37,297 nucleotides of DNA from a virus. Made by a program: the position numbers and the translations under genes. Position 1 is the first letter of the stretch; the number at the start of each line of letters is the position of its first letter. Where the stretch lies: positions 1 to 37,297 of the IMG/VR virus record IMGVR_UViG_3300038307_000206. One strand, given 5' to 3'. This document shows, piece by piece, positions 16,143-33,295 of this stretch. The notes under the pieces are model-generated. The model made no database searches, was not told the origin of the DNA, and worked only from the letters and a program-made list of their open reading frames with translations.

Positions 16143-16733
16143 TTACCAATTTTCGTCATCCTCTAAAACATCTGAGATGTCAGGAGCTTTGACGGATGGA
16201 GTTTCTTTTTTATTCTGAGGTTTTTTTTCTGTACCTGAGTCTGGTGAGGATTCATTCGCAGCAGCTTGCTCGTCCTCCCATTTAAACATGGAAGCTAGGG
16301 TGTAGATAAAATATTCCTTTAGGTGTCTAGCCTCTGCAAAAGTTAAGCCTATGATAAAACTAGCTTTGTTGGTTGAGTCCTCCTTGTCTTCCTTGTTTAC
16401 GGAGTAAGAAAATCCAACTCTACCTTTAGCATTCGAATAGGGGGTGAATTTGAAACGAGTAATCTGCTTCGGGGTGCTATGGTAAGCTGAAAATTCCCTA
16501 TCGGATTCTATGCAATCTAAAATTGCCGCCACCTCATTACGGTTAAATTTAAATTGAGTGCTTGCAGCGGGATTCTCTTTGTTAGCTTTGAACGAACCTG
16601 TTTTCGTCTTATCGTTCCAAGAGCTTTGTTTAATGAACGAACCAAAAAGTGATCCGTCTTTTACGCTGCTCCAAAAAGAACATGCGCTGCCTGTTCCTTT
16701 AGGGTTCGGTTTGTAGAATTGTATTCTTGCCAT
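16143..16733 (-). CDS. Probable single-stranded DNA-binding protein
   Basis: This 196-residue protein consists of a beta-rich core (about 1-150) with alternating aromatic and basic residues (RIQFYKPN, GSLFGSFIKQSSW, FKFTPYSNAKGRVGFSY), a hydrophilic linker, and an acidic aromatic tail DVLEDDENW. A basic/aromatic core plus acidic tail is the hallmark of SSBs (compare bacterial SSB DDDIPF tails), where the tail recruits replication proteins. It matches the type of phage protein beginning xFYLYKPN. It sits 37 bp downstream of the polymerase gene, as expected for a replisome component. T4 gp32 zinc ligands are absent. The function is inferred from architecture and position. Confidence 0.7.
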   Translation of the reverse strand: MARIQFYKPNPKGTGSACSFWSSVKDGSLFGSFIKQSSWNDKTKTGSFKANKENPAASTQFKFNRNEVAAILDCIESDREFSAYHSTPKQITRFKFTPYSNAKGRVGFSYSVNKEDKEDSTNKASFIIGLTFAEARHLKEYFIYTLASMFKWEDEQAAANESSPDSGTEKKPQNKKETPSVKAPDISDVLEDDENW

Positions 16734-16770: not shown

Positions 16771-19344
16771 TTAGTTTCTGACTTCTGAAAGCTTTGTGTA
16801 AACGTGGCTATCTTGTACTGCTATTAGGTCAGCAAAGACAGCTTCTTCGACTTTTTTACCTTTTATTATTACGATGTTACCCTCCTCTGGGTACTTATCC
16901 CCATTCAAACTTTTGCAGGTATTCAGCTTCTCGTTAAACATTAGAACCTTCATAATTCCAGTATCGTCGGATATAGAAGTCCTCAACATGCTGTTCCCTT
17001 TTTTTGTTTTACCTATATGTGGCTTTTCGAAAATAGTGCCAATGAATGTAGATAGTCTCCCTATGGGGCTATTTTCAACCTCTCTTATACTAACTAGGTT
17101 GTCAGTTTTTTCTTCAAATATATCTTTTAAGCTGACTCCGTGGTTGTATCCCAAAAGCCTATTTTCATAATACCAGTTAGCGAAACTTTCTGATTTTATA
17201 TTCTGAGAATAAATCAATCTATAAAGTTCTGTATTTTTTCTAATTGTGTTTATCCGGCTATCCTTGATAATAGGTCTGCCTTTCTCGTCTTTTAACTCTT
17301 CGTTTAAAGCTTTGACGCATTTAGTTAGGTCATAGTTGTACGTTTCAGCTATTGGCATTATGGCAATCTTTTCCCTTTCTGTTAGCTTGCTCCATACTTG
17401 AGCTTCGTAGACTACTTTTGTGCGAGACTGCTTGAAGCCCTCTAAAGCCCCAGCTTGTATGAGAGGGCATAATACAGGCAGCGTTAACCCAGCTTCATTT
17501 GCCCCTTGGAATATTTCAAACTTGTTTGCGTACTCCTTTCTGAAGTTCATTAACTTCTCCACCGACTTATCCGATATCCCTTTGATAGATAATAAACCAA
17601 ACCTTATATTGTCACCTTCAATTTTGAAATCTAAGCCTGACTTTAAGATGTGGGGAGCCATAAGTTTAATTCCAAAAAGGTCTAACTCCCTTTCTATTTT
17701 GGCGATTTCGGTAATAGGATCGGGTTCATGCCTCGTCATTTTAAGTAGAGACAGAAAAAACTCTTTTGGATATTTGAATTTTAAATAAATCGTAGAAGCT
17801 GATAGGGCAGCGTAAGCTATAGAATGAGACTTATTAAAAGAGTAGTTAGCCGAGTCCTCTAAAACACTCCAGAGGACATCTCCCACGTCAACATTACCTT
17901 TATCCCCCATCCATTCACTTGTAAGCCTATTTTCCTCTACCTTGTCAGCAATCTTCTCCTTCCATTCCCTTACTTGAGCCACTTTCTTTTTCCCGACTAT
18001 ACGACGCAAAATTTCCGCTTCATCTAATGTGAAGCCGATTTTGTGAGCCATCTTCATCATCTGCTCTTGGTAGAGACAAACTCCCCCTGTGCTTTTTAGA
18101 ATATCATCAAAGAAAGGATGTATGGAATCGTAAACATCGTTATTAGAGTAGTTGGAATACTGATCAACAAAAGCTAGTGCCCCCGGTCTTCCTAAAGCCA
18201 ACACCGCGCTCAACTGTTCTAGATTTTTAGGTTTTACTTTCTGGCAAACTCTGAAGTTGGTGTCAGCCTCTATTTGAAATAGGCCGTGTGGAGCTCTCAG
18301 GTCTTGCAGGTTTTGGTAAATAAAATTATCGTTAAGATCTATATCCTCAACGTCTATCCCTATCTCCTTACATGCGTTATCTACAACCGAGACGCTCCTT
18401 AGCCCCAGTATGTCAAGTTTTGTATTGGTTAGAGAAACCCAATTCATATCAAAGCCAGAGATAGGGTTCTTGTCTGAGGACAACTCCAAGGGGCAAGACT
18501 CCTCTAGTTTACCATAAGACAAAAGTATTCCGGAAGGGTGAACTCCTTTGTTTTTAATTAGGTTTTTTAGTTTTAATGCTATTCTATAAACCTCCTCATT
18601 CTCGTTAAACCATTCGTCAAGCTGTTCAACTTCTTCTCTTGCTATCTCAAGGTCAGTTACTTTCCCAAAAACCTTAGGTATTAGAGAGGAAACCATATTC
18701 ATTTCAACCTCGGTTTTACTGCCTGCTATTTTCCCACACTCTTTTATAAGGAGTTTACTGCTAAGTTTATTAAGGGTTAAAATCTTTGCTGTCTTACCTT
18801 TGAATTTTGTCTCTAAATACTCTAAGACCTGTTGGCGCTTATAATAACAAACGTCAATATCTACATCACACATTAACTCTCCGTCTAAATATGTTATCCC
18901 TCCTACTACTTGTTTTTTTGCTCTGGTTTTAGATATAAACCTTTCGAAAAATAGGTCGTATTTGACAGGATCTATTTTAGTTACCCCAATTAAAAACAAA
19001 ACTAAACTACCGGCAGCAGAGCCGCGACCTTGTCCGACTGGGATGTTGTTTCTGTGACAAAAGTGAACCACGTCCCAAACCAAAAGAATATAGTCGGTAA
19101 ATCCTAATTCGTGAATAGTGTTTAGTTCATACTTGCCCCTGTTTACGTAGTTGGGGTATTCATCTGGGGTCACTTCCTCTTTGATCCTCTTTATCCCTTC
19201 GTTACATAAGGACTTTAAGAAACTAAAGTTGTCGTTACCAGACAGTTTTACGCCTTTTTTGTTTGGCTTAAAATTTGGCAGTCTGACTCCGTGGATTTCT
19301 AAGTCCAAGTCAGAGAAATTACTATTAAAAGTCTTTTCAGTCAT
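16771..19344 (-). CDS. dnaE: DNA polymerase III alpha subunit, polymerase part without PHP domain (DnaE-like)
   Basis: This is the replicative polymerase, C family. It begins with the region right after the PHP domain and then has the palm: IPVGQGRGSAAGSLVLFLIG, and CDVDIDVCYYKRQ with the catalytic Asp pair (D-x-D), followed by the thumb/fingers (GVHPSGILLS, PHGLFQIEAD, LALGRPGA, YQEQMMKMAHKIGF, SFNKSHSIAYAALS) and a C-terminal OB-fold (IGTIFEKPHIGKT...). At about 857 residues it lacks only the PHP domain, which is a separate gene at 21195-21953 with three genes between. The start is ATG at 19342-19344; a TTG two codons earlier is possible. Clamp and clamp-loader genes are not in this window. 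Confidence 0.95.
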   Translation of the reverse strand: MTEKTFNSNFSDLDLEIHGVRLPNFKPNKKGVKLSGNDNFSFLKSLCNEGIKRIKEEVTPDEYPNYVNRGKYELNTIHELGFTDYILLVWDVVHFCHRNNIPVGQGRGSAAGSLVLFLIGVTKIDPVKYDLFFERFISKTRAKKQVVGGITYLDGELMCDVDIDVCYYKRQQVLEYLETKFKGKTAKILTLNKLSSKLLIKECGKIAGSKTEVEMNMVSSLIPKVFGKVTDLEIAREEVEQLDEWFNENEEVYRIALKLKNLIKNKGVHPSGILLSYGKLEESCPLELSSDKNPISGFDMNWVSLTNTKLDILGLRSVSVVDNACKEIGIDVEDIDLNDNFIYQNLQDLRAPHGLFQIEADTNFRVCQKVKPKNLEQLSAVLALGRPGALAFVDQYSNYSNNDVYDSIHPFFDDILKSTGGVCLYQEQMMKMAHKIGFTLDEAEILRRIVGKKKVAQVREWKEKIADKVEENRLTSEWMGDKGNVDVGDVLWSVLEDSANYSFNKSHSIAYAALSASTIYLKFKYPKEFFLSLLKMTRHEPDPITEIAKIERELDLFGIKLMAPHILKSGLDFKIEGDNIRFGLLSIKGISDKSVEKLMNFRKEYANKFEIFQGANEAGLTLPVLCPLIQAGALEGFKQSRTKVVYEAQVWSKLTEREKIAIMPIAETYNYDLTKCVKALNEELKDEKGRPIIKDSRINTIRKNTELYRLIYSQNIKSESFANWYYENRLLGYNHGVSLKDIFEEKTDNLVSIREVENSPIGRLSTFIGTIFEKPHIGKTKKGNSMLRTSISDDTGIMKVLMFNEKLNTCKSLNGDKYPEEGNIVIIKGKKVEEAVFADLIAVQDSHVYTKLSEVRN

Positions 19345-19537
19345 TTTCAATCGCTCCTTCTATATCTAATCTATGAAGAACCTTTTTAAGCGTATCGATT
19401 GTATGCTTTTTAGAGAGCTTGTAACAAACGTTAGCTTTATTCTTCTTCTCTCCTCTAGAAATAACTACCATAAAATAATCTAAGTTATCTTTTTCTAGTT
19501 TATCTTTTAAGTCCTCTAAGTAATCTAAAGATGGCAT
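19337..19537 (-). CDS. Hypothetical protein, 66 aa, between exonuclease and polymerase
   Basis: This small soluble protein (MPSLDYLEDLKDKLEKDN...) starts inside the end of the DnaQ-like exonuclease gene by one base and ends inside the polymerase gene start (8-bp overlap). Predicted pattern: helix, strand (YFMVVISRG), strand, helix. No family is recognised. Its position inside the split replicase operon suggests a role as a polymerase-associated small subunit, comparable in position but not in recognised sequence to theta of Pol III. That is inference from context only. Confidence 0.75.
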   Translation of the reverse strand: MPSLDYLEDLKDKLEKDNLDYFMVVISRGEKKNKANVCYKLSKKHTIDTLKKVLHRLDIEGAIEND

Positions 19538-20193
19538 TATATGTTTATTTGCATTTTTAGCTTGTTCCAGACTTTTATGTTTAAGCGCAGGTCAACTATA
19601 GCGTCATGCAGCTTATCATAATCATGTTTTATATCAAACTCCTTGCCAAGAGCTGTTAGGTTACTTTTAACCCTTCTTCTCCTCGTGTTCAGTATTTTGT
19701 ATTGGTAAAGGCATAGCTCTCTGTTGCTAAGTTTTCCTCCTTCATTTCTGAAAGGTATGTCATACTTGATACCCCTAGCCAAACAATTAGTATCTATTAT
19801 CTTTTCTACTAAGTGGTTATAGCTCTCTCCCATGAATTCGTAATACCCTTTCAGCAAATATAAGTCAAATCCTAAAAAATTATGACCAACTATATAGTCG
19901 CATTCATCAAGCCAAGGTGACATTTGTTTGAAAGCCTCCTCTGGGCTGATAGCTTTTGACAAGAATTTCTTCTCGTTGTAGCCAGTTATTCTAGCCGCTT
20001 CCTCTCCGACCCTTAAGTCTGTGTCCCATTTTATATATAGATCTTGAGAATCGAGAATTTTGTTTCCTTTATATTTTATTAGGCCAGCTTGCCAAGGGCG
20101 GTTTTGACAAAAGTTCAGGCATAAATTGTACGTCTCGAAGTCGCAAAAAGTATATACTTTATCTTGATTGAATCTAAGTAAATCTTTATTCAT
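19537..20193 (-). CDS. DnaQ-like 3'-5' proofreading exonuclease (DEDDh)
   Basis: This epsilon-type exonuclease of 218 residues probably edits errors of the C-family polymerase. Motif I is TFCDFETYN with D18 and E20, motif II GHNFLGFDLYLLK with D110, and motif III HDAIVDLRL with H196 and D201 in the H-x4-D spacing of the DEDDh class. It lies two genes upstream of the polymerase core, overlaps the preceding gene by 8 bp, and is followed by a 66-residue protein. A clamp-binding motif was not recognised. The DEDDh exonuclease assignment is secure. Confidence 0.92.
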   Translation of the reverse strand: MNKDLLRFNQDKVYTFCDFETYNLCLNFCQNRPWQAGLIKYKGNKILDSQDLYIKWDTDLRVGEEAARITGYNEKKFLSKAISPEEAFKQMSPWLDECDYIVGHNFLGFDLYLLKGYYEFMGESYNHLVEKIIDTNCLARGIKYDIPFRNEGGKLSNRELCLYQYKILNTRRRRVKSNLTALGKEFDIKHDYDKLHDAIVDLRLNIKVWNKLKMQINI

Positions 20194-21202
20194 TAGTTAT
20201 AGTCTCGCCGTCTTTGGGGAAAAAACCAACTGAAGCCATACTCTCGTATTCTTTAATGTTGCTAATGCTTATGGATCTATCAAGCATTAATTCATTATCA
20301 ATAAGCACTTTGATATCTTTCGCTTCGTTTTCTATATTGACTTCCGTTGCTGAAAATTGTCTGCCATAGTTAGTTAGGTTAATTAATTCGCCGTCTATAT
20401 ATACCTTATGTTCGCAACCCTTCTTGTTAACTAAATAAACGTAAGGTTTGGTTTTGTCTTTTGGGTTGTACGCTACGCCAACTCCGCAGGGGGTGCATTT
20501 ATCTATCTCACTATTTGGGAAAATGTTTCCCATTCTATGCTCTTTGTTGTCGCTTTTAATTATCTTTATATTGTTATATTTAATAAAGGGTAGTATTTTG
20601 TGCGCAGTGCCCTCTTCTACCGATCTATAGTTACCGTCAGGTAGAGTATAGGAACGGTCCGCCTCCCATTCATCTATTGTTTTGGGTAGTCTAAGATTCT
20701 CGCTGAAGAAGCGAGAGCTGCCTCCCACCATCGTGATTTCGTAAAAAGATTCTTTTTCGCTGCCCGAGTCAAAGAAAATAGCATCCGCCTTCTCTAAAGT
20801 ATGAAAAAGATCACTTATTACATTAGCGTCCTTATGTCCTATAATGTTATCGTAATCAGTATAAATAAAGCTGTCATAACCCAAAAGCAATGCCATGTTA
20901 GCCCCAATCGAGCAATTGCTGCAGCAGGTATAAGATGTGCAATTTGGATAGATGTGTATATATAATTTTCCGTTTGCAAACCATCTTACTCGAGACTTAC
21001 TTCTATCTAATAGTATGTTTTTATTATTGTAGAAATAGTAATCAGATAAAGCTTGATACCTGTCTCTTACTGGAAAATTTGAAATATGTAAAACATCATA
21101 GCCAAACTCTTTGAATCTGCTAATACAGTCAACCATGATAGACTCTTTCTCTATACTTGGGCAATAGCTATGTACTATGATTAAATTCTTATGCTTACTC
21201 AT
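20186..21202 (-). CDS. Putative GT-A-fold glycosyltransferase lying inside the split polymerase locus
   Basis: The 338-residue protein begins NLIIVHSYCPSIEKES and has ANMALLLGYDSFIYTDYDNI, where DYD resembles the DxD metal site of GT-A transferases working on nucleotide sugars. A Cys-rich segment (SYTCCSNCSIGA) lies just before it. The N-terminal two thirds looks like a small GT2/GT32-like fold; the last 100 residues are beta-rich (YVYLVNKKGCEHKVYIDGE). It overlaps both neighbours by 8 bp, so it is a fixed part of the replication operon, between the PHP-domain gene and the exonuclease. Whether it glycosylates DNA, protein or glycan is unknown. Confidence 0.65.
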   Translation of the reverse strand: MSKHKNLIIVHSYCPSIEKESIMVDCISRFKEFGYDVLHISNFPVRDRYQALSDYYFYNNKNILLDRSKSRVRWFANGKLYIHIYPNCTSYTCCSNCSIGANMALLLGYDSFIYTDYDNIIGHKDANVISDLFHTLEKADAIFFDSGSEKESFYEITMVGGSSRFFSENLRLPKTIDEWEADRSYTLPDGNYRSVEEGTAHKILPFIKYNNIKIIKSDNKEHRMGNIFPNSEIDKCTPCGVGVAYNPKDKTKPYVYLVNKKGCEHKVYIDGELINLTNYGRQFSATEVNIENEAKDIKVLIDNELMLDRSISISNIKEYESMASVGFFPKDGETITNE

Positions 21203-21953
21203 TTAGGGCCTTTCCCCAGTTCTCAAAGCAAAAAGTGTCGGAGGACATGTTGTTAAGCTGTGGCTTCTCTAATGTGCTTCTATTATTAATGCACCTAAAA
21301 GTTAGGTAGGCTTTAAAGTCTTCTTTGTTTTTGTAAAAGACGCTTTGAGTGTTTACTTTTTCGTACTTAGATACAGAAGCGTAATCTTCAACCAAGTCTT
21401 TTAGTATGTGATCATATGGTAGATTGTTATTCTCTACGAAGATCACGGGCTTACAGAAGCTAAAGTCTGGAACACAACCACGACTACTGAAATTATTCTG
21501 AAACACAAAGGAATCGTAGAAAGGAACTGCAAGCAAAAGGTCTTTGTCGCTCCAGTTATTCTTTATTGATTCAAAGTCAGTTCTTGGCTCGTAATAGAAC
21601 CCTTCGGTGGCAGCTTGGCTATAGATTTTGATTAACCTTTTGTACCCGTTCTTGTTTTTACAGAAGATAATATACTTGCAGGAAGTCTGAATGGACGCCT
21701 CGTTCTTTTTATGAAGATCTTGGCAGACGGTAATCCTAACCCCAAATATTAGCTTGATCTTCAGCTTGGATAAGTTTGAGTAAGCCTCCAAAAACCCACC
21801 CATGCAGTCATCAACCAAATAAACTTCCTTTAGGGAATTCTCTTGAGCTATTTGAGGAATCGAGTCTGGCCCATTAGGCTCAGATCCAGACGCCAAAGTC
21901 AGTATACTCCTGCCTAGAGAATAGTGGCTCTTGAATAATGGAATGATGTCCAT
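21195..21953 (-). CDS. PHP domain of DNA polymerase III alpha as a separate gene
   Basis: This 252-residue protein corresponds to the N-terminal PHP region of DnaE and ends where the polymerase core gene would begin. The family layout is visible: start IIPLFKSHYSLGRSI (DnaE: VHLxVHSxYSMxxG), SIPQIAQENSLKEVYLVDD, KIKLIFGVRI, then NKNGYKRLIKIYSQA and GFYYEPRTD. The HxH metal pair of active PHP domains is lost (L6 and K8 at those places, H10 out of register) and the DHG/DFT segment reads DDC, so it is probably a structural, inactive domain like that of E. coli. The gene starts at a predicted transcription start. Confidence 0.85.
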   Translation of the reverse strand: MDIIPLFKSHYSLGRSILTLASGSEPNGPDSIPQIAQENSLKEVYLVDDCMGGFLEAYSNLSKLKIKLIFGVRITVCQDLHKKNEASIQTSCKYIIFCKNKNGYKRLIKIYSQAATEGFYYEPRTDFESIKNNWSDKDLLLAVPFYDSFVFQNNFSSRGCVPDFSFCKPVIFVENNNLPYDHILKDLVEDYASVSKYEKVNTQSVFYKNKEDFKAYLTFRCINNRSTLEKPQLNNMSSDTFCFENWGKALNE

Positions 21954-21989: not shown

Positions 21990-22970
21990 CTAAAAGTCAA
22001 ACAAATCATCTATTATGTCTATTTGCTTACTTGGATGAGGGTGAGCGGGGCATCCGTCATACCTCTTCTCTACTATCTTCTCACCTTTTTTTTGTTTCAA
22101 ATTTTCTTTTTTTCTCGCTGATCTGATAAATTTAGAATCCTTATCTTGTAGCTCGTAATAGTCAAAAGCGTCTAGGTATGGGCATCTCCAAGTCTTGCCA
22201 GCCTTACACATCCAAGAGGACTTTCCGTCTTTAGCGTAATTGGTTCTCGCATCTTTCTCCGAAAATGAATTTATTTGTTTGTAACAACTCTCTAAAAAGT
22301 ATTCAAAACCTTCAAGTTCCTCCACTGTGTAAACACATTGTTGTGCGGCTGACTTAGGAAACCTTAGGAATAGAAACTCAATAGTAGGTTTAAGTGTTGG
22401 CCAAAGTTTTAAAGAAGCTAAAGAGTAAGACATCGCTTGTATGTTTGCGGTAAGCTCTTCTCCTCTAAATTTTTGCTTACTGCTTTTGTAGTCTACAATT
22501 TTGATGGTCTTATCTTTTTTGTACATTATAGGCTTATCCATGAAGCCTCGTATTTTGTATTTTGGTTCCTCGCTTACTATTAAGAACTCTTTTTCTGGGT
22601 CGGTGACCTTTCCTCCTTCTCCGAAAAAGTCGTACCTCAGACCAACTACAATCATCTTATTGATTAACTCATAATTCTCCTCCGAGTTCATTGGTAGGTC
22701 GTGTACTTTTGTGTCTCGGTTTAAATGTTTGATTATTAATCTTTTAATAGAGGGGCTTCCGTCTAAGCTAGAAGCTTTTGAGATTAACTCTTTATGTCGA
22801 TTGTGTTTCTTTTTTAGAATTAACTCAAATACTAAATGACATATAGTTCCACGCAAAGACCCCTCATTTTGTCTCTGGGGTATCTTTAGTTCGTAGTTAC
22901 AATAGTAAGACCACGAACAGCTTTCTAAAGTCTTGATTCTCGACGCTGATAAGATTTTTTCTTTTTTCAT
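21990..22970 (-). CDS. RecB/Cas4-like PD-(D/E)XK nuclease with probable Fe-S cysteines
   Basis: This single-strand exonuclease-type protein of the RecB/Cas4 superfamily has 326 residues. It opens with SASRIKTLESCSWSYYCNYE (first Cys and the QhxxY-like start), then LRGTICHLVFELI (family H). The core is IRGFMDKPIMY with D, followed by TIKIVDYKSS, the D-(x)-YK catalytic pair. C-terminal cysteines in WMCKAGKTWRCPYLD and GCPAHPHP, with the early ESC, could bind a 4Fe-4S cluster as in Cas4/AddB. In the replication operon it probably processes ends for recombination. The start is ATG overlapping the preceding stop (ATGA). Confidence 0.85.
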   Translation of the reverse strand: MKKEKILSASRIKTLESCSWSYYCNYELKIPQRQNEGSLRGTICHLVFELILKKKHNRHKELISKASSLDGSPSIKRLIIKHLNRDTKVHDLPMNSEENYELINKMIVVGLRYDFFGEGGKVTDPEKEFLIVSEEPKYKIRGFMDKPIMYKKDKTIKIVDYKSSKQKFRGEELTANIQAMSYSLASLKLWPTLKPTIEFLFLRFPKSAAQQCVYTVEELEGFEYFLESCYKQINSFSEKDARTNYAKDGKSSWMCKAGKTWRCPYLDAFDYYELQDKDSKFIRSARKKENLKQKKGEKIVEKRYDGCPAHPHPSKQIDIIDDLFDF

Positions 22971-23557
22971 CTCCACGGATTTCCGCTAATCCAGCTAACC
23001 ATACTATACCTGTTGCCAGACTCCATTCTGGAAACCTTATGAAGTAAAAATGAAGGGAATATAATTATATTGCCTCTACCTCTATCCATAGTAATTTCAT
23101 TGCCTGTATTTAATATTAAATTTCCTCCAGTATAATCCTTTGGATCACTTAATTGAATGACAACGCTTAGCTTCCTCTTATTCTTTCCCGGCCCTATGTC
23201 TGGATGCCAGTCGTAATGCTTACCCTGCCCTTCGTATTCTGTAAATTGTAGATCCTCTGTAAAGCCAGTTGTATCAAGTTTGAATAGATTCCTGTTGGCT
23301 TCTTCGCAGCACTCCCTTATCTGGTCAAAGATGAATTTGGTGTCTTCGTTTGGTGGAATCCATCTTACTTCGCTATTCCTTGCTTCGTTATGTGAGTCTG
23401 AGAAGGTTGTAGCGGTTTCCTTGCGGAACCTTTTCCCGATCTTTATTATCTCCTCGCACTTAGCTGGGCTAAGAATGCCTTCGAACCAGTAATAGCTCAA
23501 AAGGTCTTTGTCTTTCTCTTGCCCTTCTAATCCAAAAATTCTATTATAATTACTCAT
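22967..23557 (-). CDS. 2OG-Fe(II) oxygenase, prolyl-hydroxylase-like
   Basis: This 196-residue protein is of the prolyl 4-hydroxylase type. The metal and cosubstrate residues are clear: HYDWHPDIGP (H-x-D), RKLSVVIQLSDPKDYTGG, and FPSFLLHKVSRMESGNRYSMVSW with the distal His and the 2OG-binding Arg. Many marine phages encode similar small oxygenases; substrates (protein proline, nucleic acid or sugar) are unsettled. It lies within the replication operon between primase and nuclease, overlapping both. It differs in sequence from the oxygenase at 11649-12218. Confidence 0.92.
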   Translation of the reverse strand: MSNYNRIFGLEGQEKDKDLLSYYWFEGILSPAKCEEIIKIGKRFRKETATTFSDSHNEARNSEVRWIPPNEDTKFIFDQIRECCEEANRNLFKLDTTGFTEDLQFTEYEGQGKHYDWHPDIGPGKNKRKLSVVIQLSDPKDYTGGNLILNTGNEITMDRGRGNIIIFPSFLLHKVSRMESGNRYSMVSWISGNPWR

Positions 23558-24440
23558 TAAAAAAGTCCTTTACCTCCTCCGTAGACATATCCCCAAAATC
23601 GTTATGGTGTCTAGGTAGCATGACTTCGACTTGACTTGGGTCAAAGAATTTTAATAGTTTCTTTTTTAGTTTGTGTGCCGCTATGCTTCCAGTCTGCCTC
23701 TTGTCATTATTTAGGGATATTGTAATTTTATCTGGATCAAAGCTTAATAGTTGATTAAAAACTTCGCCGCTTATGTCTACCCCAAATATAACCATGCTGT
23801 TTTTTATTCCAGCAGACCAAAGCGAAAGCATATCCCCGATACTTTCCAGTAGGATTACCTTGTTGCAGGATTTTATATCCTTATAATTTACTTGTAGTGG
23901 GTACTTCCATTGGCTTTTGTCCCCCATATGTTTCCATTTTATTTTACTGCTATCGGTTATATCTCTACCCGTATAGCCTATCACTTCTTTTTGCCTGTTG
24001 AAAATTGGGAACACGTACCTGTTCTTAAGTTGGCCTGCGTCAACTGTACCTCCTTGGAATAAAGATATAGCTTCTTCTGATACTCCCCTGTTTACCCAAT
24101 AGGTATGGTCTGGGGTTATATGTTTTAATGATTCCTTATTAAATTTTCTAGCCTCCTTTATTTTAGGTTTGTTGTCCTCGTTGGTGCGGGTCTGGTTTAA
24201 GCCCTTATTCCTTATCCAGTTTGACGCTTCAATCGTGGTAACCTTCAAATGAATTTGAACTAACCTTTGGAATGAGCCTTTTTCGCCAACGCCCCAATCA
24301 TTGAAGTATCCAGTATCTTTCTTAACGCTTAATGAGCTATTATTGCTAGACTCTCTGTAAAGAGGCCTCATCCTATACTCTCTACCGTTATCTAGGATTT
24401 GGGAGTATCCCAGCTCACATAATACTTCCTTTATGGTCAT
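23550..24440 (-). CDS. DnaG-type primase with TOPRIM domain, zinc ribbon without cysteines
   Basis: This RNA primase is the partner of the DnaB helicase two genes upstream. Residues 1-80 keep the shape of a CHC2 zinc-ribbon domain (MRPLYRESSNNSSLSVK, YFNDWGVGEKGS) but contain no suitable cysteines: only C8 and C192 are present in the protein, so zinc binding is lost. The TOPRIM domain has LLESIGDMLSLWSAG (E199, D203; family EGxxD) and ITISLNNDKRQTG (N245, D246; family DxDxAG). At 296 residues it lacks the C-terminal helicase-binding domain of full DnaG. It is probably active despite changes, or serves in a modified way. It overlaps its neighbours. Confidence 0.85.
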   Translation of the reverse strand: MTIKEVLCELGYSQILDNGREYRMRPLYRESSNNSSLSVKKDTGYFNDWGVGEKGSFQRLVQIHLKVTTIEASNWIRNKGLNQTRTNEDNKPKIKEARKFNKESLKHITPDHTYWVNRGVSEEAISLFQGGTVDAGQLKNRYVFPIFNRQKEVIGYTGRDITDSSKIKWKHMGDKSQWKYPLQVNYKDIKSCNKVILLESIGDMLSLWSAGIKNSMVIFGVDISGEVFNQLLSFDPDKITISLNNDKRQTGSIAAHKLKKKLLKFFDPSQVEVMLPRHHNDFGDMSTEEVKDFFNE

Positions 24441-24843
24441 TTATCATACCCTCGTCTCTATTTACGTTAATTGCGAAAGCTGTTTTCATTGGTGCCTTAT
24501 TACCAGCAGTCCCAACAGGTTTAATATCGTTCACAAGGACTCTTGGCCCAGCCATTAAGTCAAACATAATTCTATCATACCTTATGTCGTAATACTTAAG
24601 CATCTTTATAGTATGTGGTGCGTGTCTACTATCTCTTGCCGTAGTTAAAATTATAGTATCATCATATGGTATAGAGTTAAGAAACTTAATGCTCGGTGTT
24701 ATGGGTACTTCTATTAGGTGGCTATCATGACCTTTTGTTTTAATAGCTTCATCTATCTGATCGTTGGAATTATGTTTAACAATAGTTCCGTCTATATCAA
24801 TGAACCATGTTTTGTTTGTTGATTCTTTAGCTTCGGTTTTCAT
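24415..24843 (-). CDS. HAD-superfamily phosphatase-like protein
   Basis: HAD fold, 142 residues. Motif I is WFIDIDGTI with D16 (nucleophile) and D18, motif II IILTTARD carries the conserved Thr, and the C-terminal RVLVNDIKP supplies the acidic motif IV. The final AFAINVNRDEG segment resembles small HAD proteins associated with capsule and sugar-phosphate genes, so a sugar phosphate (for example in nucleotide-sugar synthesis) is a plausible substrate. The T4-like polynucleotide kinase phosphatase domain is an alternative. It overlaps dnaB by 4 bp and the primase gene by 26 bp. Confidence 0.78.
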   Translation of the reverse strand: MKTEAKESTNKTWFIDIDGTIVKHNSNDQIDEAIKTKGHDSHLIEVPITPSIKFLNSIPYDDTIILTTARDSRHAPHTIKMLKYYDIRYDRIMFDLMAGPRVLVNDIKPVGTAGNKAPMKTAFAINVNRDEGMINDHKGSIM

Positions 24844-26342
24844 ATTAGTTCGTCGTCGTTATCTTCTGGGTGTCTATCTTCTAATGTATGTTGTTCTCTT
24901 TGTCTTTGTACTATGGTCTCAAGAGAGCCCATCTCTTCACAATTGAAATTCTCAACTGAAAAGTTTAAATAGTTGTGCGTAAATCTTTCAGATCCATCTT
25001 CTACCACTCTCCTCACTAGGTCTTGATGCCCTGCCGCGTCTCTTCCTTGGAATCTGGATTTTATAGTCACTAACTTGTGAGTGCCAAACTCTTCTCCGTC
25101 TAGCGCTATTTCGTCTAAAGTTTTTCTTCTGAAAATGCCGACGTAACTGGAAAACCATTGGAGCCTGTCTGACAGGGCGATTACAGAGCTATCATCGACA
25201 ACGGTACTTGAATTTCGGTTATGGCTCTCGCCTTGCCGGTTAAGTTGCATAGCTGTTATGACAGGGCATTTTAATTCTTCGGATAGTCTTTTTAGTTTAT
25301 CAATCTTTTCGCCTATTGCTTGATGCTCTGCCCAATTTCTGTCTACCTTCTCGCCGGTAAGTTTAACGTAGTCGTACCCTATTATACAGCCGTTCCCTCT
25401 ACCTACTGTTTTATAATACCATCTTTTAACAATATTGCAAACTTGATCTATGTCTTTACTGCCAACATGAAAGTGAGTGTAGTCATAGCTCCTTACTTCT
25501 TGAAGAGCTTCTCTCACCTTTGTTATCATTTCTTTATTCTTACGCCAGTTACCTGTTTCTAAAAACCAAGAAGGGACTCCAGAAATTGCCGCCGCCATTC
25601 TGAATTGCATTTCCTCCTTGCTCATTTCGGTATCCAAGATTAAGGCTTTTATCTTATTCTTCTTAGCGGTTTTCATAAGAAGATCGTTTATCCAAGTCGT
25701 CTTGCCTTGTCCCGGTCTAGAAGCTATTGCGTAAATGTTTCCGGGGCGAAGACCTCCATAAAGCCTGTTAAACTCTTCATAAGACGTTAGGTAGCCGGGG
25801 TCTCTCTCAGGATTATTTCCCCTGTCTTCAATGAGTTCTGACATATTATCGAACAAATTGGAAGGCTCCGCCTCTCCTGTGTATTCGTATATCTTATCAC
25901 TATATATGTTGTCAGCCTTAGCTATGAAATCTGTTAGAGTATTTTCTCCTTCTTTTCTGGCATGTTCAACAAGGTTTCTTCCTGTTAGTTCTGTATTCCT
26001 CCTTACGGTTAGCTTTATTAACTCTTTGGCGGAGTTGACGGTTCCTTTCTTGTTTATTTGAGCGAAAGATATACTTTTGATATAACTGAATACATCTATT
26101 TCATCTTTAAACTTTATACCTAAGTTTACTATCTTTTGAGCAATTATTACATCATCTAATTTATCTTTTGAAAACTCTCCTTCTAGGATTATAGATCTAA
26201 TAACTTTAAATATTGTGCTATGAAGCTCGCTATAAAAATCTTCATGAGTTACGAATCCGTCAAGATCCAGAAAGGCAGAGGGGTGATTAATGATCCCCCC
26301 TAAAACATGTTTTTCGATGCGTAAAGAATAAATATTGGACAT
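24840..26342 (-). CDS. dnaB: Replicative DNA helicase, DnaB-type
   Basis: This hexameric helicase unwinds DNA at the phage fork and has 500 residues. The N-terminal domain (about 1-110, starting SLRIEKHVLGGIIN) matches the primase-interacting domain of DnaB. The RecA-fold part has Walker A SRPGQGKTT (about 208-216), LILDTEMSKEEM, the Walker B region GCIIGYDYVKL, and ITAMQLNRQGESHNR, the sensor/DNA-binding loop. The tail is acidic. The ATG at 26340-26342 was chosen; a TTG one codon upstream is possible. It is preceded by a promoter of the CCCC-spacer family that would give a leader of about 16 bases. It is the first gene of a helicase, phosphatase, primase, oxygenase and nuclease block. Confidence 0.96.
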   Translation of the reverse strand: MSNIYSLRIEKHVLGGIINHPSAFLDLDGFVTHEDFYSELHSTIFKVIRSIILEGEFSKDKLDDVIIAQKIVNLGIKFKDEIDVFSYIKSISFAQINKKGTVNSAKELIKLTVRRNTELTGRNLVEHARKEGENTLTDFIAKADNIYSDKIYEYTGEAEPSNLFDNMSELIEDRGNNPERDPGYLTSYEEFNRLYGGLRPGNIYAIASRPGQGKTTWINDLLMKTAKKNKIKALILDTEMSKEEMQFRMAAAISGVPSWFLETGNWRKNKEMITKVREALQEVRSYDYTHFHVGSKDIDQVCNIVKRWYYKTVGRGNGCIIGYDYVKLTGEKVDRNWAEHQAIGEKIDKLKRLSEELKCPVITAMQLNRQGESHNRNSSTVVDDSSVIALSDRLQWFSSYVGIFRRKTLDEIALDGEEFGTHKLVTIKSRFQGRDAAGHQDLVRRVVEDGSERFTHNYLNFSVENFNCEEMGSLETIVQRQREQHTLEDRHPEDNDDELI

Positions 26343-26365
26343 CAATCTGATTAGATCAAGAAGTC

Positions 26366-28182: not shown

Positions 28183-28606
28183 CGTCTGTGAAATCAATTA
28201 AGTTCTTGTGGTATTTTAATCCTTTTTTATTTTTTCCAATTGGTTTGTTTTCTAAGCTGTATGTCTTTTTGTCTGACAGGTTTAGGTTCCTTTTCTTGTT
28301 TTGAAATTTGAGCCACTCTGTCTTCTCTGGCTTCAACCACTCTTTCAGGGAGTATATCTTGTGTCCCTCCGCGTTCAGCCACTTCCAAAACTTTTTGTCA
28401 GGTATAATAGCGAAAAGCTCTTTGGCCCTCTTGTACTGAAAGATGAATGTTATCTTCTTTGGGTCAGAGCAAAAAGTAGAAACCATGAAGGAATAGAAAG
28501 CATGATTCTTATCCTTTGGCGCTGGCTTTTTAGCTTTAGCCTTAGCTTTAGCCTTCTTTTTGCCGGTGTCTCCGATAGATTCTCCTGTTAGCTCAAAGTC
28601 CGTCAT
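28175..28606 (-). CDS. Hypothetical protein with Lys/Ala-rich N-terminus, 143 aa
   Basis: The protein has a short acidic start, then a repetitive Lys/Ala segment (KKKAKAKAKAKKPAPK) that may bind nucleic acid, then a folded-looking part with many aromatics (KFWKWLNAEG, LKEWLKPEKTEWLKFQ) and a basic tail. No family is recognised. It sits between the sugar operon end (gmd) and recA, overlapping gmd by 14 bp. A DNA-binding recombination accessory is plausible from context, but the evidence is weak. Confidence 0.7.
   Translation of the reverse strand: MTDFELTGESIGDTGKKKAKAKAKAKKPAPKDKNHAFYSFMVSTFCSDPKKITFIFQYKRAKELFAIIPDKKFWKWLNAEGHKIYSLKEWLKPEKTEWLKFQNKKRNLNLSDKKTYSLENKPIGKNKKGLKYHKNLIDFTDDE
28530..28555. 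repeat. Short hexanucleotide repeat encoding Lys-Ala repeats
   Basis: Near-perfect repeats of TAGCTT/TAGCCT run through this span inside the 143-residue gene and encode the AKAKAK stretch. Such a tract can expand or contract by slippage. No function beyond the encoded residues is evident. Confidence 0.6.
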
Positions 28607-29633
28607 TCAACGCAAGGTCACAGTGTACCATACGTTCTACCAGTTTGTCAAACGAAATCTGCGGTTCCCACCCTAATTCTTTTCTAGCTGATGTTGAGTC
28701 TCCCCGCAAAAGCTCGACTTCTGCTGGTCTGTAAAATTCATTATCTATTTCTGCTAAGACCGTATTCTCTTGAAAAAGCCTAAACTTTTCGTCCATCCCT
28801 TCTCCACTCCATAAACCGGGGATACCGGCGGCAGCAAAGGCTGTTGTAACAAAGTCTTTAATGGAATGAGTCTCTCCGCTGGCTAGGATATGCTCTTTGG
28901 GTTCGTCTTGCTGCATCATCATCCAAACACCCCTCATAAAATCCTCAGAATCAGACCAGTCTCTCCTTGAATTAACGTTACCTAATCGAATGGGAATAAT
29001 GTCTTCATTGTTTTTTATGTTTTTCTTAATTTTAGCTATGCCTTTTGTAATTTTGCGTGTGACAAATTCCTCGCCTCTTCTCAACCCTTCATGGTTGAAC
29101 AAAATGCTATGGATAGCGAAAATGTTGTAAGACTCTCTGTAAACCTTAGTTAGGTGTCTACAAGCTGCCTTAGAGGCTCCATAGGGGCTTCTGGGTTTAA
29201 TGGGGTGTTTAAGGTCTTGCGGTGAGTAATCCACGTCCCCCATCTCTTCAGAGCTACCAGCGCTATAGAACCGACATTTGGGAGCATAGCACCTAATAGC
29301 TTCTAAACACCTAAGTAAACCGGTGGTGTTAGTTTCCCAGACATGGATCGGGCTTGTCCAGCTACATCCAACATAAGAGTTAGCGGCAAAATTTAAAAAA
29401 TAATCTGGGGAATACTTCTTTACGGCGCTATTTATACTCGTTGAATCAGTAAGGTCTCCATGAAACAGGGTAAATCTAGGGTGGGACAGCAAGTGCTTGA
29501 TGTTGTGGTTATTCGGTATCGAAACCCTCCTAGACATTCCGTAGATATGGATATCCTCATGGTCGTTTATGAGGTGGTCAGCCATATTGGAGCCGTCTTG
29601 TCCTGTCACTCCCGTTATTATTACTTTTTTCAT
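28593..29633 (-). CDS. gmd: GDP-mannose 4,6-dehydratase
   Basis: Gmd converts GDP-D-mannose to GDP-4-keto-6-deoxy-D-mannose. It is a 346-residue SDR with TGVTGQDGSNMADHL (NAD(P)-binding, family TGxxGxxG), SAGSSEEMGDV (Ser/Thr and Glu of the active site), SPYGASKAACRHLTK (YxxxK catalytic pair), and QQDEPKEHILASGETHSIKDF, the clear Gmd-family signature. The product is the shared substrate of the next two enzymes encoded upstream (Fcl-like and ColD-like), so the three form a pathway. The operon also holds matching transferases. It overlaps the following gene by 14 bp and the DegT-type gene by 4 bp (ATGA). Confidence 0.96.
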   Translation of the reverse strand: MKKVIITGVTGQDGSNMADHLINDHEDIHIYGMSRRVSIPNNHNIKHLLSHPRFTLFHGDLTDSTSINSAVKKYSPDYFLNFAANSYVGCSWTSPIHVWETNTTGLLRCLEAIRCYAPKCRFYSAGSSEEMGDVDYSPQDLKHPIKPRSPYGASKAACRHLTKVYRESYNIFAIHSILFNHEGLRRGEEFVTRKITKGIAKIKKNIKNNEDIIPIRLGNVNSRRDWSDSEDFMRGVWMMMQQDEPKEHILASGETHSIKDFVTTAFAAAGIPGLWSGEGMDEKFRLFQENTVLAEIDNEFYRPAEVELLRGDSTSARKELGWEPQISFDKLVERMVHCDLALNDGL

Positions 29634-30874
29634 AAGTTGTTTAAATATTCTGTTAAGTTTAAGATCATGCTTTTTTTAACTTTGTGGTTTAGCCCTACAT
29701 AAAAGCCGTAATTGTGGAGGTGTTCGGCTACTGGGTATTCCTTCCATTGTTCCTTTTGGGGAAATGGTGAGAGGTATGGTCTCTGTCTAAGCATGTTTCC
29801 TCCTATTATCTGCCTGTGCTCTATTTTATTTTTAGTACAAAAGGCTTTTGCGTTAAGTAGTTGATCTTTAGCTCTCCAGTCTGCCGTTTTATTTTTGAAA
29901 ATTATAGGCAAGCAAAATGGAACGTTTAGGTTATGTATGTCAAACTTAGGTAGTGCAAACTTTTCATGGTCAATCTTTCCTGCGAAGTAGGAGTACAATT
30001 CTCTCCTAGTCTCAATATAGTCTTCGATCCTCTTAAAGTCTAGTAAGCCTATAAAAGCTTCTATGTCTGTAGCCCTATAGTTACTTCCCATGCAGAAAAA
30101 ATCGAAACTAGGGTCAACCAAATTGTTCTGATAGAGTTTGCAGTCTATGCCGTATTCTGTCAGGCTTCTGGTCATACCATGCGACCTGTTCATCAGGTGG
30201 AATTTATACTCCCTCTCGTCGTCGGTTAGGATAAAGCCTCCCTCTACTGAGGTGGTATGGTGCCCGAAGTAAGTAGAGATGGAGCTTGTTGCTACCTTAC
30301 AAATATGGGTTTTGAGCGTTAGGTCTCCGTCTTCTGTTGTCGATAAGACCTCTCCAAAAGCGTTCTCGCAATTATCTAGTCCATATTCTACTTTATGTTT
30401 TCTGCATTCTTCTGTAATTCCTTTTACGTCTGGGTTAAACCCAATTAAAGAAGTAGGCCACACGTAGGCAACCTTATCTCTATTCTTTTCTAAATATAGC
30501 CCCAGCTCTTTGGCGCTCATTCCAAAGTCATCATAAGTTATATCTATAAACTTTACTTTAAAGCCTGCTTTTATCCAAGGGGTAACAGACGTTTGCCAAG
30601 TTACAGAAGGTACTAACACTGTGGAGCCGATTGACTTATGGGTGCCGTCTTCAGTTTTGTGTTTTATATACTGAGCAATGGAGGAGTTAGCGGTAGAGCC
30701 GCTAGAAAACATAACGGCGTATTTACAGCCTGTGTATTCAGCCCACGCCTTCTCGTATTCTCTTACATACTTTCCTTGAGTCCACCTGTTCTTTTTTGAT
30801 AAAAAGAACTTACATATCTTGAGGCGGTCTAATAGGGTAAAGTTATCTACGTTTAATTTCCATTCTTGTACCAT
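29630..30874 (-). CDS. DegT-fold PLP enzyme with His in place of Lys; probable GDP-4-keto-6-deoxymannose 3-dehydratase (ColD/RfbH type)
   Basis: DegT/DnrJ family, 414 residues. The PLP-fold segments are visible: FSSGSTAN, VLVPSVTWQTSV, GLDNCENAFGEV, then SISTYFGHHTTSVEGGFIL. The residue that holds PLP in aminotransferases is Lys; aligned from the EGG motif it is H205 here. That substitution, and the SHGMTRS motif after it, mark the deoxygenating dehydratases such as ColD and RfbH (E1), which remove the C-3 hydroxyl. With Gmd alongside, ColD activity on GDP-4-keto-6-deoxymannose is the most likely, leading toward a 3,6-dideoxy sugar such as colitose with the adjacent Fcl-like enzyme. The alternative is GDP-perosamine synthase, but that needs Lys. 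It overlaps both neighbours. Confidence 0.82.
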   Translation of the reverse strand: MVQEWKLNVDNFTLLDRLKICKFFLSKKNRWTQGKYVREYEKAWAEYTGCKYAVMFSSGSTANSSIAQYIKHKTEDGTHKSIGSTVLVPSVTWQTSVTPWIKAGFKVKFIDITYDDFGMSAKELGLYLEKNRDKVAYVWPTSLIGFNPDVKGITEECRKHKVEYGLDNCENAFGEVLSTTEDGDLTLKTHICKVATSSISTYFGHHTTSVEGGFILTDDEREYKFHLMNRSHGMTRSLTEYGIDCKLYQNNLVDPSFDFFCMGSNYRATDIEAFIGLLDFKRIEDYIETRRELYSYFAGKIDHEKFALPKFDIHNLNVPFCLPIIFKNKTADWRAKDQLLNAKAFCTKNKIEHRQIIGGNMLRQRPYLSPFPQKEQWKEYPVAEHLHNYGFYVGLNHKVKKSMILNLTEYLNNL

Positions 30875-31749
30875 TCTACGGTTTGTTTAAGTCCTTCTTT
30901 TAGGTCTGTGAAAGCGTCATCTGATAGATTTAGCGCTTCTACTATTTTTGTATTATTTAATGTTCTAACCTCCGCCTCTTTAGATTCGTCTGGTTCTTCC
31001 ATCTCTATCACCCCTTCGTAGCCGGTTATCTCTACTAGCGTCTCTACTATAGATTTAATTGTGACAGTTAAGAAGGTTGAGACGTTGTACGTTCCTTCGA
31101 TTTTTTTTCTTAAACATTCTGAGATGGCGTTGCATAAGTCCCCGCTATACATAAAGTCTCTTCCGTTATTTGGGTTGCCTAATACTTTTATAGTATCTTC
31201 TTTTGATACCATTTGCCTAATTAAATTTGGAATAACATGAGATACAAAAGGGTCAAAATGGTCATGCGGGCCATACATATTGGTTGGAATTAGTATACAT
31301 GATTTAATTAGATCTGGACAGTCTATGTTTAAGGCGTCTATAACCTTGTGACCCAACCTTTTAGAGTGGCCGTATCCGAAGTTATTATTGTTGGGATTAT
31401 CTAGAAAAACGGAATCCTCTTGACTGTTACCGTCTCTGTAGACGCAAGCGCTACTTACATATATGTAATAACAACTTAACCTTAGCTTCTTTATAGCCGT
31501 TGCTAAATTTAAAGCAATTAAAGAGTTGTCTCTTAATAGCTCTACGTTGTTTATTTTGTTGTATTGAAAGCCTCCAACTCTAGCCGCCATATTTACTATA
31601 GCTTCAGGCTTGGTTCCGTCTAAATAGGTTAAAACTGAATCCAGATTCGTCAGGTCGCAAACCGATTTATTAGGTTTAAAGGCTAGGTCAAGATCGGGTC
31701 CTAGGCTTGAGCCCACGAAACCTCTAGCTCCAAATATTACTGTGCTCAT
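30853..31749 (-). CDS. Fcl-like NAD(P)-dependent epimerase/reductase (GDP-fucose or GDP-colitose synthase type)
   Basis: This SDR of 298 residues (from ATG at 31747-31749) acts as a 5-epimerase/4-reductase on a GDP-4-keto sugar. GARGFVGSSL is the nucleotide-binding motif, NMAARVGGFQYN is the signature of GDP-L-fucose synthase (AAKVGGI), VSSACVYRDGN holds the Ser, and FGYGHSKRLGHK holds the YxxxK pair. Depending on which substrate it accepts, it makes GDP-L-fucose directly from the Gmd product or, as ColC does in colitose synthesis, reduces the ColD product. Presence of ColD-like and GT11-like genes makes both routes plausible. It overlaps the GT11 gene by 4 bp and the ColD-like gene by 22 bp. 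Confidence 0.9.
   Translation of the reverse strand: MSTVIFGARGFVGSSLGPDLDLAFKPNKSVCDLTNLDSVLTYLDGTKPEAIVNMAARVGGFQYNKINNVELLRDNSLIALNLATAIKKLRLSCYYIYVSSACVYRDGNSQEDSVFLDNPNNNNFGYGHSKRLGHKVIDALNIDCPDLIKSCILIPTNMYGPHDHFDPFVSHVIPNLIRQMVSKEDTIKVLGNPNNGRDFMYSGDLCNAISECLRKKIEGTYNVSTFLTVTIKSIVETLVEITGYEGVIEMEEPDESKEAEVRTLNNTKIVEALNLSDDAFTDLKEGLKQTVEWYKNGN
31053..31071 (-). repeat. Second copy of the 19-bp shared sequence
   Basis: This is identical to 16099-16117, but here it lies inside the Fcl-like coding region, where it encodes part of LTVTIKS. The coding location argues against an obligatory regulatory role. Confidence 0.35.
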
Positions 31750-32582
31750 ATTTTTATCCAACTTTCTGGTACTATATCCTTGTCCTCGTAGTTTTTATTG
31801 CGGTCTTTTATTCGTGGGTTAAACCAAACCTTAGGAGCAATGACTTTCTTATCCTCTTTTTGATTCATCCAAGCTCCCCACCAACTGAAACTGCTATTTG
31901 CTATGATGTTATTCTTACATAGGGACATGCAAAGAAGGTCGGCGTATGGCGAGTGCTCCTCTTTGTTGAAGTAGTAGTTGTCTGATTTAAAGTTTTCCAT
32001 GCACCACTCCGGGTCATCTGAAAAGAATATGTATTTCTTTGTATTAGATTCTTCCATGGATTTTTGGTAGTAATCTTTATCTAATATGTTGTAATAATCT
32101 GATTTCTTTAAATAATCACCCCTTCTTACGTGGACAGATGTGCATTCAAATGGGTCTATCTCTTCTCCCGAGCTTCTGTTTAAAAAGTTCATCGCAAACG
32201 AATACGTATAACCCGTCGGGGTCAAGGTTTGTAAGATTTTATCCCTGTAGTCTTTGAAGTATTTTTCACATTGGAAATATCCGTGGAGATTTGTGTTATC
32301 TTTTATGTCGTTTAGTAGATTAGGGTCGTAAGACATTCCCGATTCGCTTACTTCATACATTATGTTCCCTAAGTCTTCTTTCTCTAGGTTGTCGTAAACT
32401 TTTTTAAACCCTTGAAATATAGAATAACAATTAGCTTCATACGACTCTTCGTAGAAAGTTTCATTTTTGTAAGGTATCTTAATATCGTAACCATACCTTT
32501 CCGCCACAGCTATTAGGGTACTGTACTGGAATAAGGAATTCCCCAATCCGCCAAACCTACCAAGCTTTCTAAAGGTAATCAT
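31746..32582 (-). CDS. GT11-type alpha-1,2-fucosyltransferase-like protein
   Basis: This transferase uses a GDP-6-deoxy-L-sugar donor and has 278 residues. FRKLGRFGGLGNSLFQYSTL is the GT11 start, TSVHVRRGDYLKKSDYY is the donor-binding HxRRxDY motif, and NSSFSWWGAWMNQ is the third GT11 signature. GT11 enzymes move L-fucose, and some move L-colitose, which fits the neighbouring GDP-sugar enzymes. No signal peptide was seen, so it acts in the cytoplasm. The gene overlaps both neighbours by 4 bp. The family call is secure; the exact donor and acceptor are unknown. Confidence 0.92.
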   Translation of the reverse strand: MITFRKLGRFGGLGNSLFQYSTLIAVAERYGYDIKIPYKNETFYEESYEANCYSIFQGFKKVYDNLEKEDLGNIMYEVSESGMSYDPNLLNDIKDNTNLHGYFQCEKYFKDYRDKILQTLTPTGYTYSFAMNFLNRSSGEEIDPFECTSVHVRRGDYLKKSDYYNILDKDYYQKSMEESNTKKYIFFSDDPEWCMENFKSDNYYFNKEEHSPYADLLCMSLCKNNIIANSSFSWWGAWMNQKEDKKVIAPKVWFNPRIKDRNKNYEDKDIVPESWIKI

Positions 32583-33295
32583 TTATAGTTTTCCGTGAAC
32601 CACTCGTCAGGCCTGTTTTGATCGAAGAGCCTAATCTGATCGTGGCTATAATCTATGTTCCTCTGGACTATATCGCTAAAGCTTTTACCTTGGACGGCGA
32701 AAAGGGGATTGCAAATATATGTCGCGTGCTTTGACTGAATTTCTTGTATTAAGAAGTTGTCGACAGCTACGCATCCCGCCGTGAATTCTACCAAATCTGA
32801 TATATCCTCTGGAACTTTGGATAATATATCGTCGTAAACTGTGTGGTTATATGCTACTGCGTGAGTAGCCTTAGCGCAATTAGTCCGGAATAAAAAATTA
32901 GAGACCATGCTCATTTTTTTCTCAACCGTTGCTCCTAGGTAAAATAGCCCCCAAGTATTAGGCAGATCTTCTGCAGAGTGTCTCACCGACGTTATATCTT
33001 CATGAAGAAAAGAAACGTCGTCTTCAAATACGAGGACTTGCTCCATCCCTTCTTCTTTAGCTTTTTTTATTATGGCCCTGTGGGAGCCGAGGCATCCTGC
33101 ATTAGGTACTATGTGGTAGGGTCCTACCTTGGTGTCAAACTTAGGGTCAAACTCGTATCCCCTTGGATTTACAGCCGGAAACCTTTGTACTTTCTCTTTA
33201 ATGCCTATTTGAGAAAAAGACTTTTGGACTTGGTGCCACCTATCTTCTCTGGAGGTTAAGTTTATACAGTAAATATCATTAAATAAACTCAACAT
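32579..33295 (-). CDS. GT25-type glycosyltransferase
   Basis: This GT-A-type enzyme has 238 residues. DIYCINLTSREDRWHQVQKSF is the characteristic start of the LPS beta-galactosyltransferase/GT25 group, followed by GCLGSHRAIIKKA and VLVFEDDVSF, where EDDV is the metal-binding acidic motif. These enzymes usually transfer Gal or Glc onto LPS-type glycans. It overlaps the fucosyltransferase-like gene by 4 bp and the small 58-residue gene by 17 bp. Family assignment is good; the sugar is unknown. Confidence 0.9.
   Translation of the reverse strand: MLSLFNDIYCINLTSREDRWHQVQKSFSQIGIKEKVQRFPAVNPRGYEFDPKFDTKVGPYHIVPNAGCLGSHRAIIKKAKEEGMEQVLVFEDDVSFLHEDITSVRHSAEDLPNTWGLFYLGATVEKKMSMVSNFLFRTNCAKATHAVAYNHTVYDDILSKVPEDISDLVEFTAGCVAVDNFLIQEIQSKHATYICNPLFAVQGKSFSDIVQRNIDYSHDQIRLFDQNRPDEWFTENYK

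Follow-up and report, generated by a model that had tools for sequence, protein, structure and literature searches.

A viral DnaE-type replicase whose PHP domain is a separate protein without a metal site, conserved across a clade

The window analysed here, the whole 37,297-nt stretch of IMG/VR virus record IMGVR_UViG_3300038307_000206, is probably a fragment of a larger genome. Its minus strand carries, in reading order, genes for DnaB helicase, an HAD-like protein, Toprim primase, a 2OG oxygenase, a PD-(D/E)XK nuclease and PHP, followed from PHP onward by a GT-like gene, EXO, a 66-codon gene, POL and a 196-codon gene (Table 1). The five-gene layout from PHP to POL described in an earlier note on this DNA was recovered at the same minus-strand positions. 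From PHP to POL, each gene shares 1 to 8 bases with the next (the GT-like gene shares 8 bp with PHP and 8 bp with EXO, and the 66-codon gene and POL share 8 when the latter is read from its ATG), which suggests coupled translation. The nuclease gene keeps its position upstream of PHP in relatives, and the 196-aa gene adjoins POL in most of them; the latter has no above-threshold family match in Pfam, PHROG or NCBIfam and, with its acidic C-terminus, is possibly an SSB. Elsewhere in the window, at 28593-33295, lies a sugar block of two epimerase-like genes, one aminotransferase and two glycosyltransferases.

Table 1. Genes of the replication region in the window
Feature	Position	Strand	Remarks
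DnaB helicase	24840-26345	-	Replication block upstream of PHP (whole block 23550..26345)
HAD-like gene	24415-24843	-	Replication block upstream of PHP
Toprim primase	23550-24440	-	Replication block upstream of PHP
PD-(D/E)XK (Cas4/RecB-like) nuclease	21990..22976	-	PF12705, 1.2e-17; directly upstream of PHP
PHP gene	21195..21953	-	252 aa; N-terminal PHP domain of DnaE as stand-alone protein
GT-like cargo gene	20186..21202	-	338 aa
EXO gene	19537..20193	-	218 aa; DnaQ-type DEDDh 3'-5' exonuclease; predicted proofreading subunit
66-codon gene	19337..19537	-	Between EXO and POL
POL gene	16771..19344	-	857 aa from ATG 19344; 859 aa from TTG 19350; PHP-less part of DnaE with palm, fingers, HHH and OB
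196-aa gene	16143..16733	-	Immediately 3' of POL; acidic C-terminus

PHP and POL together make up one complete DnaE, as the earlier note had proposed, since they cover complementary spans of profiles for the fused protein. On TIGR00594 (length 1022) PHP covers 26-240 and POL 276-1022, and on the fused PHROG family phrog_405 (length 1190) the two match 62-284 and 322-1082, respectively, with a POL match of 8e-155. POL also matches PF07733 (3.5e-58), PF17657 (3e-32), HHH_6 (1.8e-14) and Taq alpha (2e-101), and its palm and fingers carry the catalytic Asp triad of the DnaE-type enzymes (D164, D166, D313), which is invariant among relatives. An OB region follows C-terminal to the polymerase core, as in DnaE; the match is weak (770-832, below the Pfam cut-off), and the POL profile aligns in this region to Taq and E. 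coli alpha. The position of the OB region and the strength of the matches rule out an assignment of POL to PolC. The AlphaFold2 model of PHP superposes on Taq alpha up to residue 259, and the POL profile aligns in sequence to E. coli alpha from residue 285 onward, which places the cut in the linker between PHP and palm. The clean split at a domain border, with a separate start for each part, is therefore borne out, as are the sizes of 252 and about 857 residues. The POL start should be ATG 19344, which is preceded 9 nt upstream by the Shine-Dalgarno sequence AAGGAG, rather than the TTG chosen by the ORF tool.

The PHP protein belongs to the PHP fold: it matches PF02811 (E=1.4e-12), and its model (pLDDT 88) aligns to residues 5-259 of Taq alpha with a Z of 23.9 (2.8 A over 235 residues). 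The catalytic ligand set HH(D/H)HEH(C/H)(D/N)H, however, is gone. None of the nine metal ligands is kept in 113 of 115 distinct sequences and a single one in the remaining two, so that the loss goes beyond the metal-binding His pair, replaced here by L6 and K8, whose absence the earlier note had pointed out. The replacements are conserved and include four near-invariant Lys/Arg residues at positions 8, 15, 73 and 93. According to Barros 2013 (PMC3666897), variant PHPs accompany a separate exonuclease, and Arg, the commonest replacement of PHP ligands, has been proposed to stand in for the metal.

A PHP stripped of all nine ligands might be a decaying relic or might moonlight in an unrelated role, and the unrelated genes that gather at the PHP/EXO junction, together with an extra domain fused to PHP in three loci, are compatible with such a fate. 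We nevertheless give this reading very little weight. PHP is under purifying selection, with a median dN/dS of 0.12 as compared to 0.09 for EXO and 0.05 for POL (values from a simple method on non-independent pairs); it has 34 invariant columns across 50 sequences and a confidently modelled fold; and its loss was never seen where it could be scored, with the exception of one contig (L015, see below). Among its most conserved segments are the C-terminal residues 204-244, beside the old junction with the polymerase. The helix that links PHP to the palm in fused DnaE seems to be reduced or missing in the split clade. The three loci with the extra domain (L030:1751-3067, L061:3298-4614 and L071:5973-7385) bear a C-terminal extension of ~190-200 aa that has no Pfam match; a relative of this extension is encoded as an independent insert protein in L189, L190 and L199.

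The proofreading exonuclease named in the earlier note was confirmed by matches of EXO to PF00929 (3.8e-8) and phrog_192 (4e-20) and by invariant DEDDh residues (D18, E20, D110, H196, D201), which identify it as a DnaQ-like exonuclease. NCBIfam and PHROG label it epsilon-like; searches of EXO against PDB sequences and for the nearest cultured phage yielded zero matches. EXO ends at about residue 218, without the C-terminal tail that E. coli epsilon uses to bind PHP, and a PHP-EXO contact, if there is one, must therefore differ in detail from that of E. coli.

EXO is the constant gene between PHP and POL across the clade. In 72 of 149 loci nothing lies between PHP and EXO, the two genes abutting or overlapping, and the other loci, about half, hold unrelated genes at this junction, including cupins, LAGLIDADG and GIY-YIG-like endonucleases and a GT17-like enzyme, as well as several families that match nothing in Pfam (L003, L018, L020, L028, L070, L184, L249 and others). 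The GT-like gene of the window does lie between the two parts of the polymerase, as the earlier note said, but the emphasis placed on it was not upheld: its relatives are confined to the closest kin of the window (~40% identity, plus one short match), whereas EXO is constant. Judged by this distribution, it is incidental cargo at a variable junction and lies outside the conserved system. It is possibly a glycosyltransferase, as it contains IYTDYDN, by eye a DxD-like motif; Pfam, PHROG and NCBIfam yielded no match at a meaningful score, and its AlphaFold model, built with only two distinct relatives, reached a pLDDT of 45. The 66-codon gene was found in many relatives by tblastn and a gap survey and is absent from the 37 loci where EXO abuts POL; it has no family match in Pfam, PHROG or NCBIfam.

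We collected 167 loci of this large clade of uncultured phages from scans of viral contigs and one scan of bacterial genomes, some of which repeat one contig. All three of PHP, EXO and POL were found in 149 of them, invariably in the order PHP-EXO-POL and never fused, so that a search of relatives for fused or split arrangements, which the earlier note had suggested, found only the split form, and the N-terminal PHP that DnaE has in the same chain is separate in every three-gene locus. The 147 paired sets fall into 106 groups at 99%, 86 at 95% and 20 at 70% POL identity, and the split state holds down to 45% polymerase identity, the most distant members being 45-51% identical. Most of the other 18 loci end early at contig boundaries. 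The exception is L015:4114-6639, a 54-kb contig with POL near one end and neither PHP nor EXO on it; the 3.8 kb upstream of this POL hold no sizeable plus-strand gene. An intact dnaE elsewhere in the same genome, which the earlier note had named as an observation that would speak against a split replicase, was not found in 12 long relatives (79-170 kb), each of which has one PF07733 and one PF02811 match and no second polymerase or PHP.

This breadth bears on the idea that the split is an artefact or is undone in the cell, through misassembly, a recent gene-breaking insertion, a split intein or an intron. Cyanobacterial dnaE is known for its split inteins, and introns or endonucleases interrupt phage polymerase genes. 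An origin of this kind has next to no chance of being correct here, as the arrangement is shared by some 150 loci from many samples and the genes separating the parts are complete, each with its own start. A split intein was rejected because typically only ~8 residues follow the PHP core and ~11 precede the POL core, too short for intein halves; no Rfam intron was found in the window; and misassembly or breakage by the GT-like gene was discarded because the split is clade-wide and that gene is limited to the nearest relatives.

In the polymerase tree the clade is monophyletic and deep, on a long branch of 1.41 changes per site with 100/100 support. This could be read as the trace of an ancestral state, an unfused C-family replicase predating fused DnaE and PolC, and Iyer et al. 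(PMC7824862) make the case that phage Pol III and RNAP encoded in pieces may represent a primitive condition. We consider such an ancestry very improbable: PHP is fused at one position in DnaE, in PolC and in most sampled phage DnaEs, a fused state is the simplest root, and a long branch by itself indicates just fast evolution. A related proposal would make the unfused PHP, exonuclease and polymerase a separate, long-standing C-family replicase, possibly pre-fusion, in which an inactive PHP with a pocket full of Lys/Arg is an obligate scaffold in trans joining the exonuclease to the polymerase; this, too, seems quite improbable.

Compared with the DnaE alpha and epsilon of E. coli and Taq, the phage proteins have the same domains in the same order, identical catalytic residues and a separate DEDDh exonuclease, and PHP is inactive in E. 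coli alpha as well. They differ in that PHP is a protein of its own, that it keeps none of the nine ligands as opposed to four in E. coli, and that EXO lacks the tail of E. coli epsilon. In PolC and in the DnaE-DnaQ fusions of Bacteroidota, exonuclease, PHP and polymerase likewise work as a unit, and the exonuclease inside the PHP of PolC is reminiscent of the order PHP-EXO-POL; these, however, are single chains, and the OB domain of PolC is N-terminal, unlike the C-terminal OB-like region of POL. To our knowledge, PHP is always part of the polymerase chain in the cellular relatives of Pol III alpha.

Among phages, we dropped the notion that a split at the PHP border is unique to this clade, as separate PHP and polymerase genes, cut at the PHP/palm border, are also annotated in two actinophage groups, represented by Gordonia phages Djokovic and Terapin (Djokovic gp64, gp66) and by Microbacterium phage Neptune (gp56, gp57); two Pol III alpha genes have been described for Microbacterium phage cluster EF (PMC7302621). 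These phages have no exonuclease gene between the parts, are cut further downstream, past the linker helix, and have PHP ligands that look intact. Their polymerases group in the tree with fused actinophage DnaEs, and their split is therefore independent. Most other split phage C-family polymerases that we encountered are cut inside the polymerase: in Tenacibaculum phage Larrie, Rossellomorea phage phiT1, Fowlmouth, P1201, Alicyclobacillus KKP_3916 and Bacillus phage G the enzyme is likewise in pieces, but the cut falls within the palm or ahead of the fingers and PHP stays on the first piece. In Bacillus phage G (L257, gp329-gp331), DnaE seems to be interrupted ahead of the catalytic DxD region, with the homing endonuclease gp330 between gp329 and the polymerase fragment in gp331. 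The group 2.2 jumbo phages also have Pol III alpha on separate genes, but with the cut within the catalytic module, no PHP and a family B polymerase alongside (Iyer et al. 2021, PMC7824862). Other essential replication genes in pieces are the split gene 43 of T4-like phages 25 and 44RR and the split nrdA of Aeh1, which differ in encoding a family B polymerase or an RNR, in being limited to few phages and in having their parts separated by a mobile endonuclease or a spacer; the products 43A and 43B are active and purify together, which sets a precedent for pieces that reassemble (PMC2988022).

The inactive PHP is probably a structural subunit acting in trans, and likely also the dock for EXO, in a replicase core of three proteins. 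The virus would thus encode a C-family, DnaE-type replicase whose core has one protein more than the usual two and in which POL would carry out synthesis and EXO 3'-5' proofreading. The catalytically inactive PHP would dock non-covalently at the usual PHP site of alpha, where it would stabilise POL on its palm/thumb side and would probably also hold EXO. The assignment follows what PHP is known to do in Pol III, namely to stabilise alpha and to bind epsilon: PHP stabilises Pol III, with which it unfolds as a single unit in E. coli (PMC3666897), and E. coli PHP binds epsilon (Timinskas 2013, PMC3919608). By analogy, we infer that the phage PHP would bind both POL and EXO, and the overlapping translation may keep the three subunits in ratio. 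The invariant gene order without fusions, the complementary coverage of DnaE models, the preserved fold and purifying selection of PHP, the frequent contiguity of the PHP and EXO genes, the presence of one polymerase and one PHP per long contig and the single Exo-PHP-Pol chain of a flavobacterial DnaE (see below) count in favour of this three-protein core; the reduced or missing linker helix, the POL of L015 with neither PHP nor EXO, and the tail-less EXO count against it.

Some of the same observations would suit a PHP that does not bind POL and is instead an adaptor, either of EXO only or of host replication proteins, with POL working PHP-free. The abutting or overlapping PHP and EXO genes and the reduction of the helix towards the palm point in this direction, as do the minimal split Pol III alpha of the group 2.2 jumbo phages, which lack the other Pol III domains (PMC7824862). 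Such an adaptor is nevertheless unlikely, given that the segment of PHP beside the old junction is among its best conserved parts, that PHP is kept in every long-enough contig save L015, and that Pol III and PHP of E. coli unfold together.

The split replicase is a deeply conserved variant of the known phage polymerases encoded by genes in pieces; its new features are how deeply it is conserved, the exonuclease gene that separates PHP from the polymerase, and the complete loss of the metal site. Our literature search, with limited coverage of subscription papers, found no description of the clade. The role of a PHP with a dead nuclease in Pol III alpha is still debated, and a lineage that makes PHP as a separate protein offers a natural test of this role through omission and add-back experiments, which are impossible with a fused enzyme. 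The clade also shows that a replicase can remain split among lineages that share just ~45% polymerase identity, and it supplies actual sequences for a proofreading core of three parts. Should the parts not associate, this would be a C-family replicase working without a docked PHP, a possibility raised so far just for the minimal forms of jumbo phages.

Neither a beta clamp (PF00712) nor a clamp-loader delta' (PF13177) was found in eight long contigs (G001-G008, 104-170 kb), and POL has no clamp-binding motif obvious by eye. Contigs with the split replicase (L099 and L278 from one MAG, L100 and L101), including those of the most distant members of the clade (45-51% identity), are binned with Flavobacteriaceae/Flavobacteriales MAGs and one Lokiarchaeota MAG, which, as the binning may be wrong, is at best a hint of flavobacterial hosts. 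In one Flavobacteriaceae MAG (L277, G017 contig 43), DnaE is a single 1461-aa chain of the form Exo-PHP-Pol, and the same MAG also contains contigs of split-replicase viruses.
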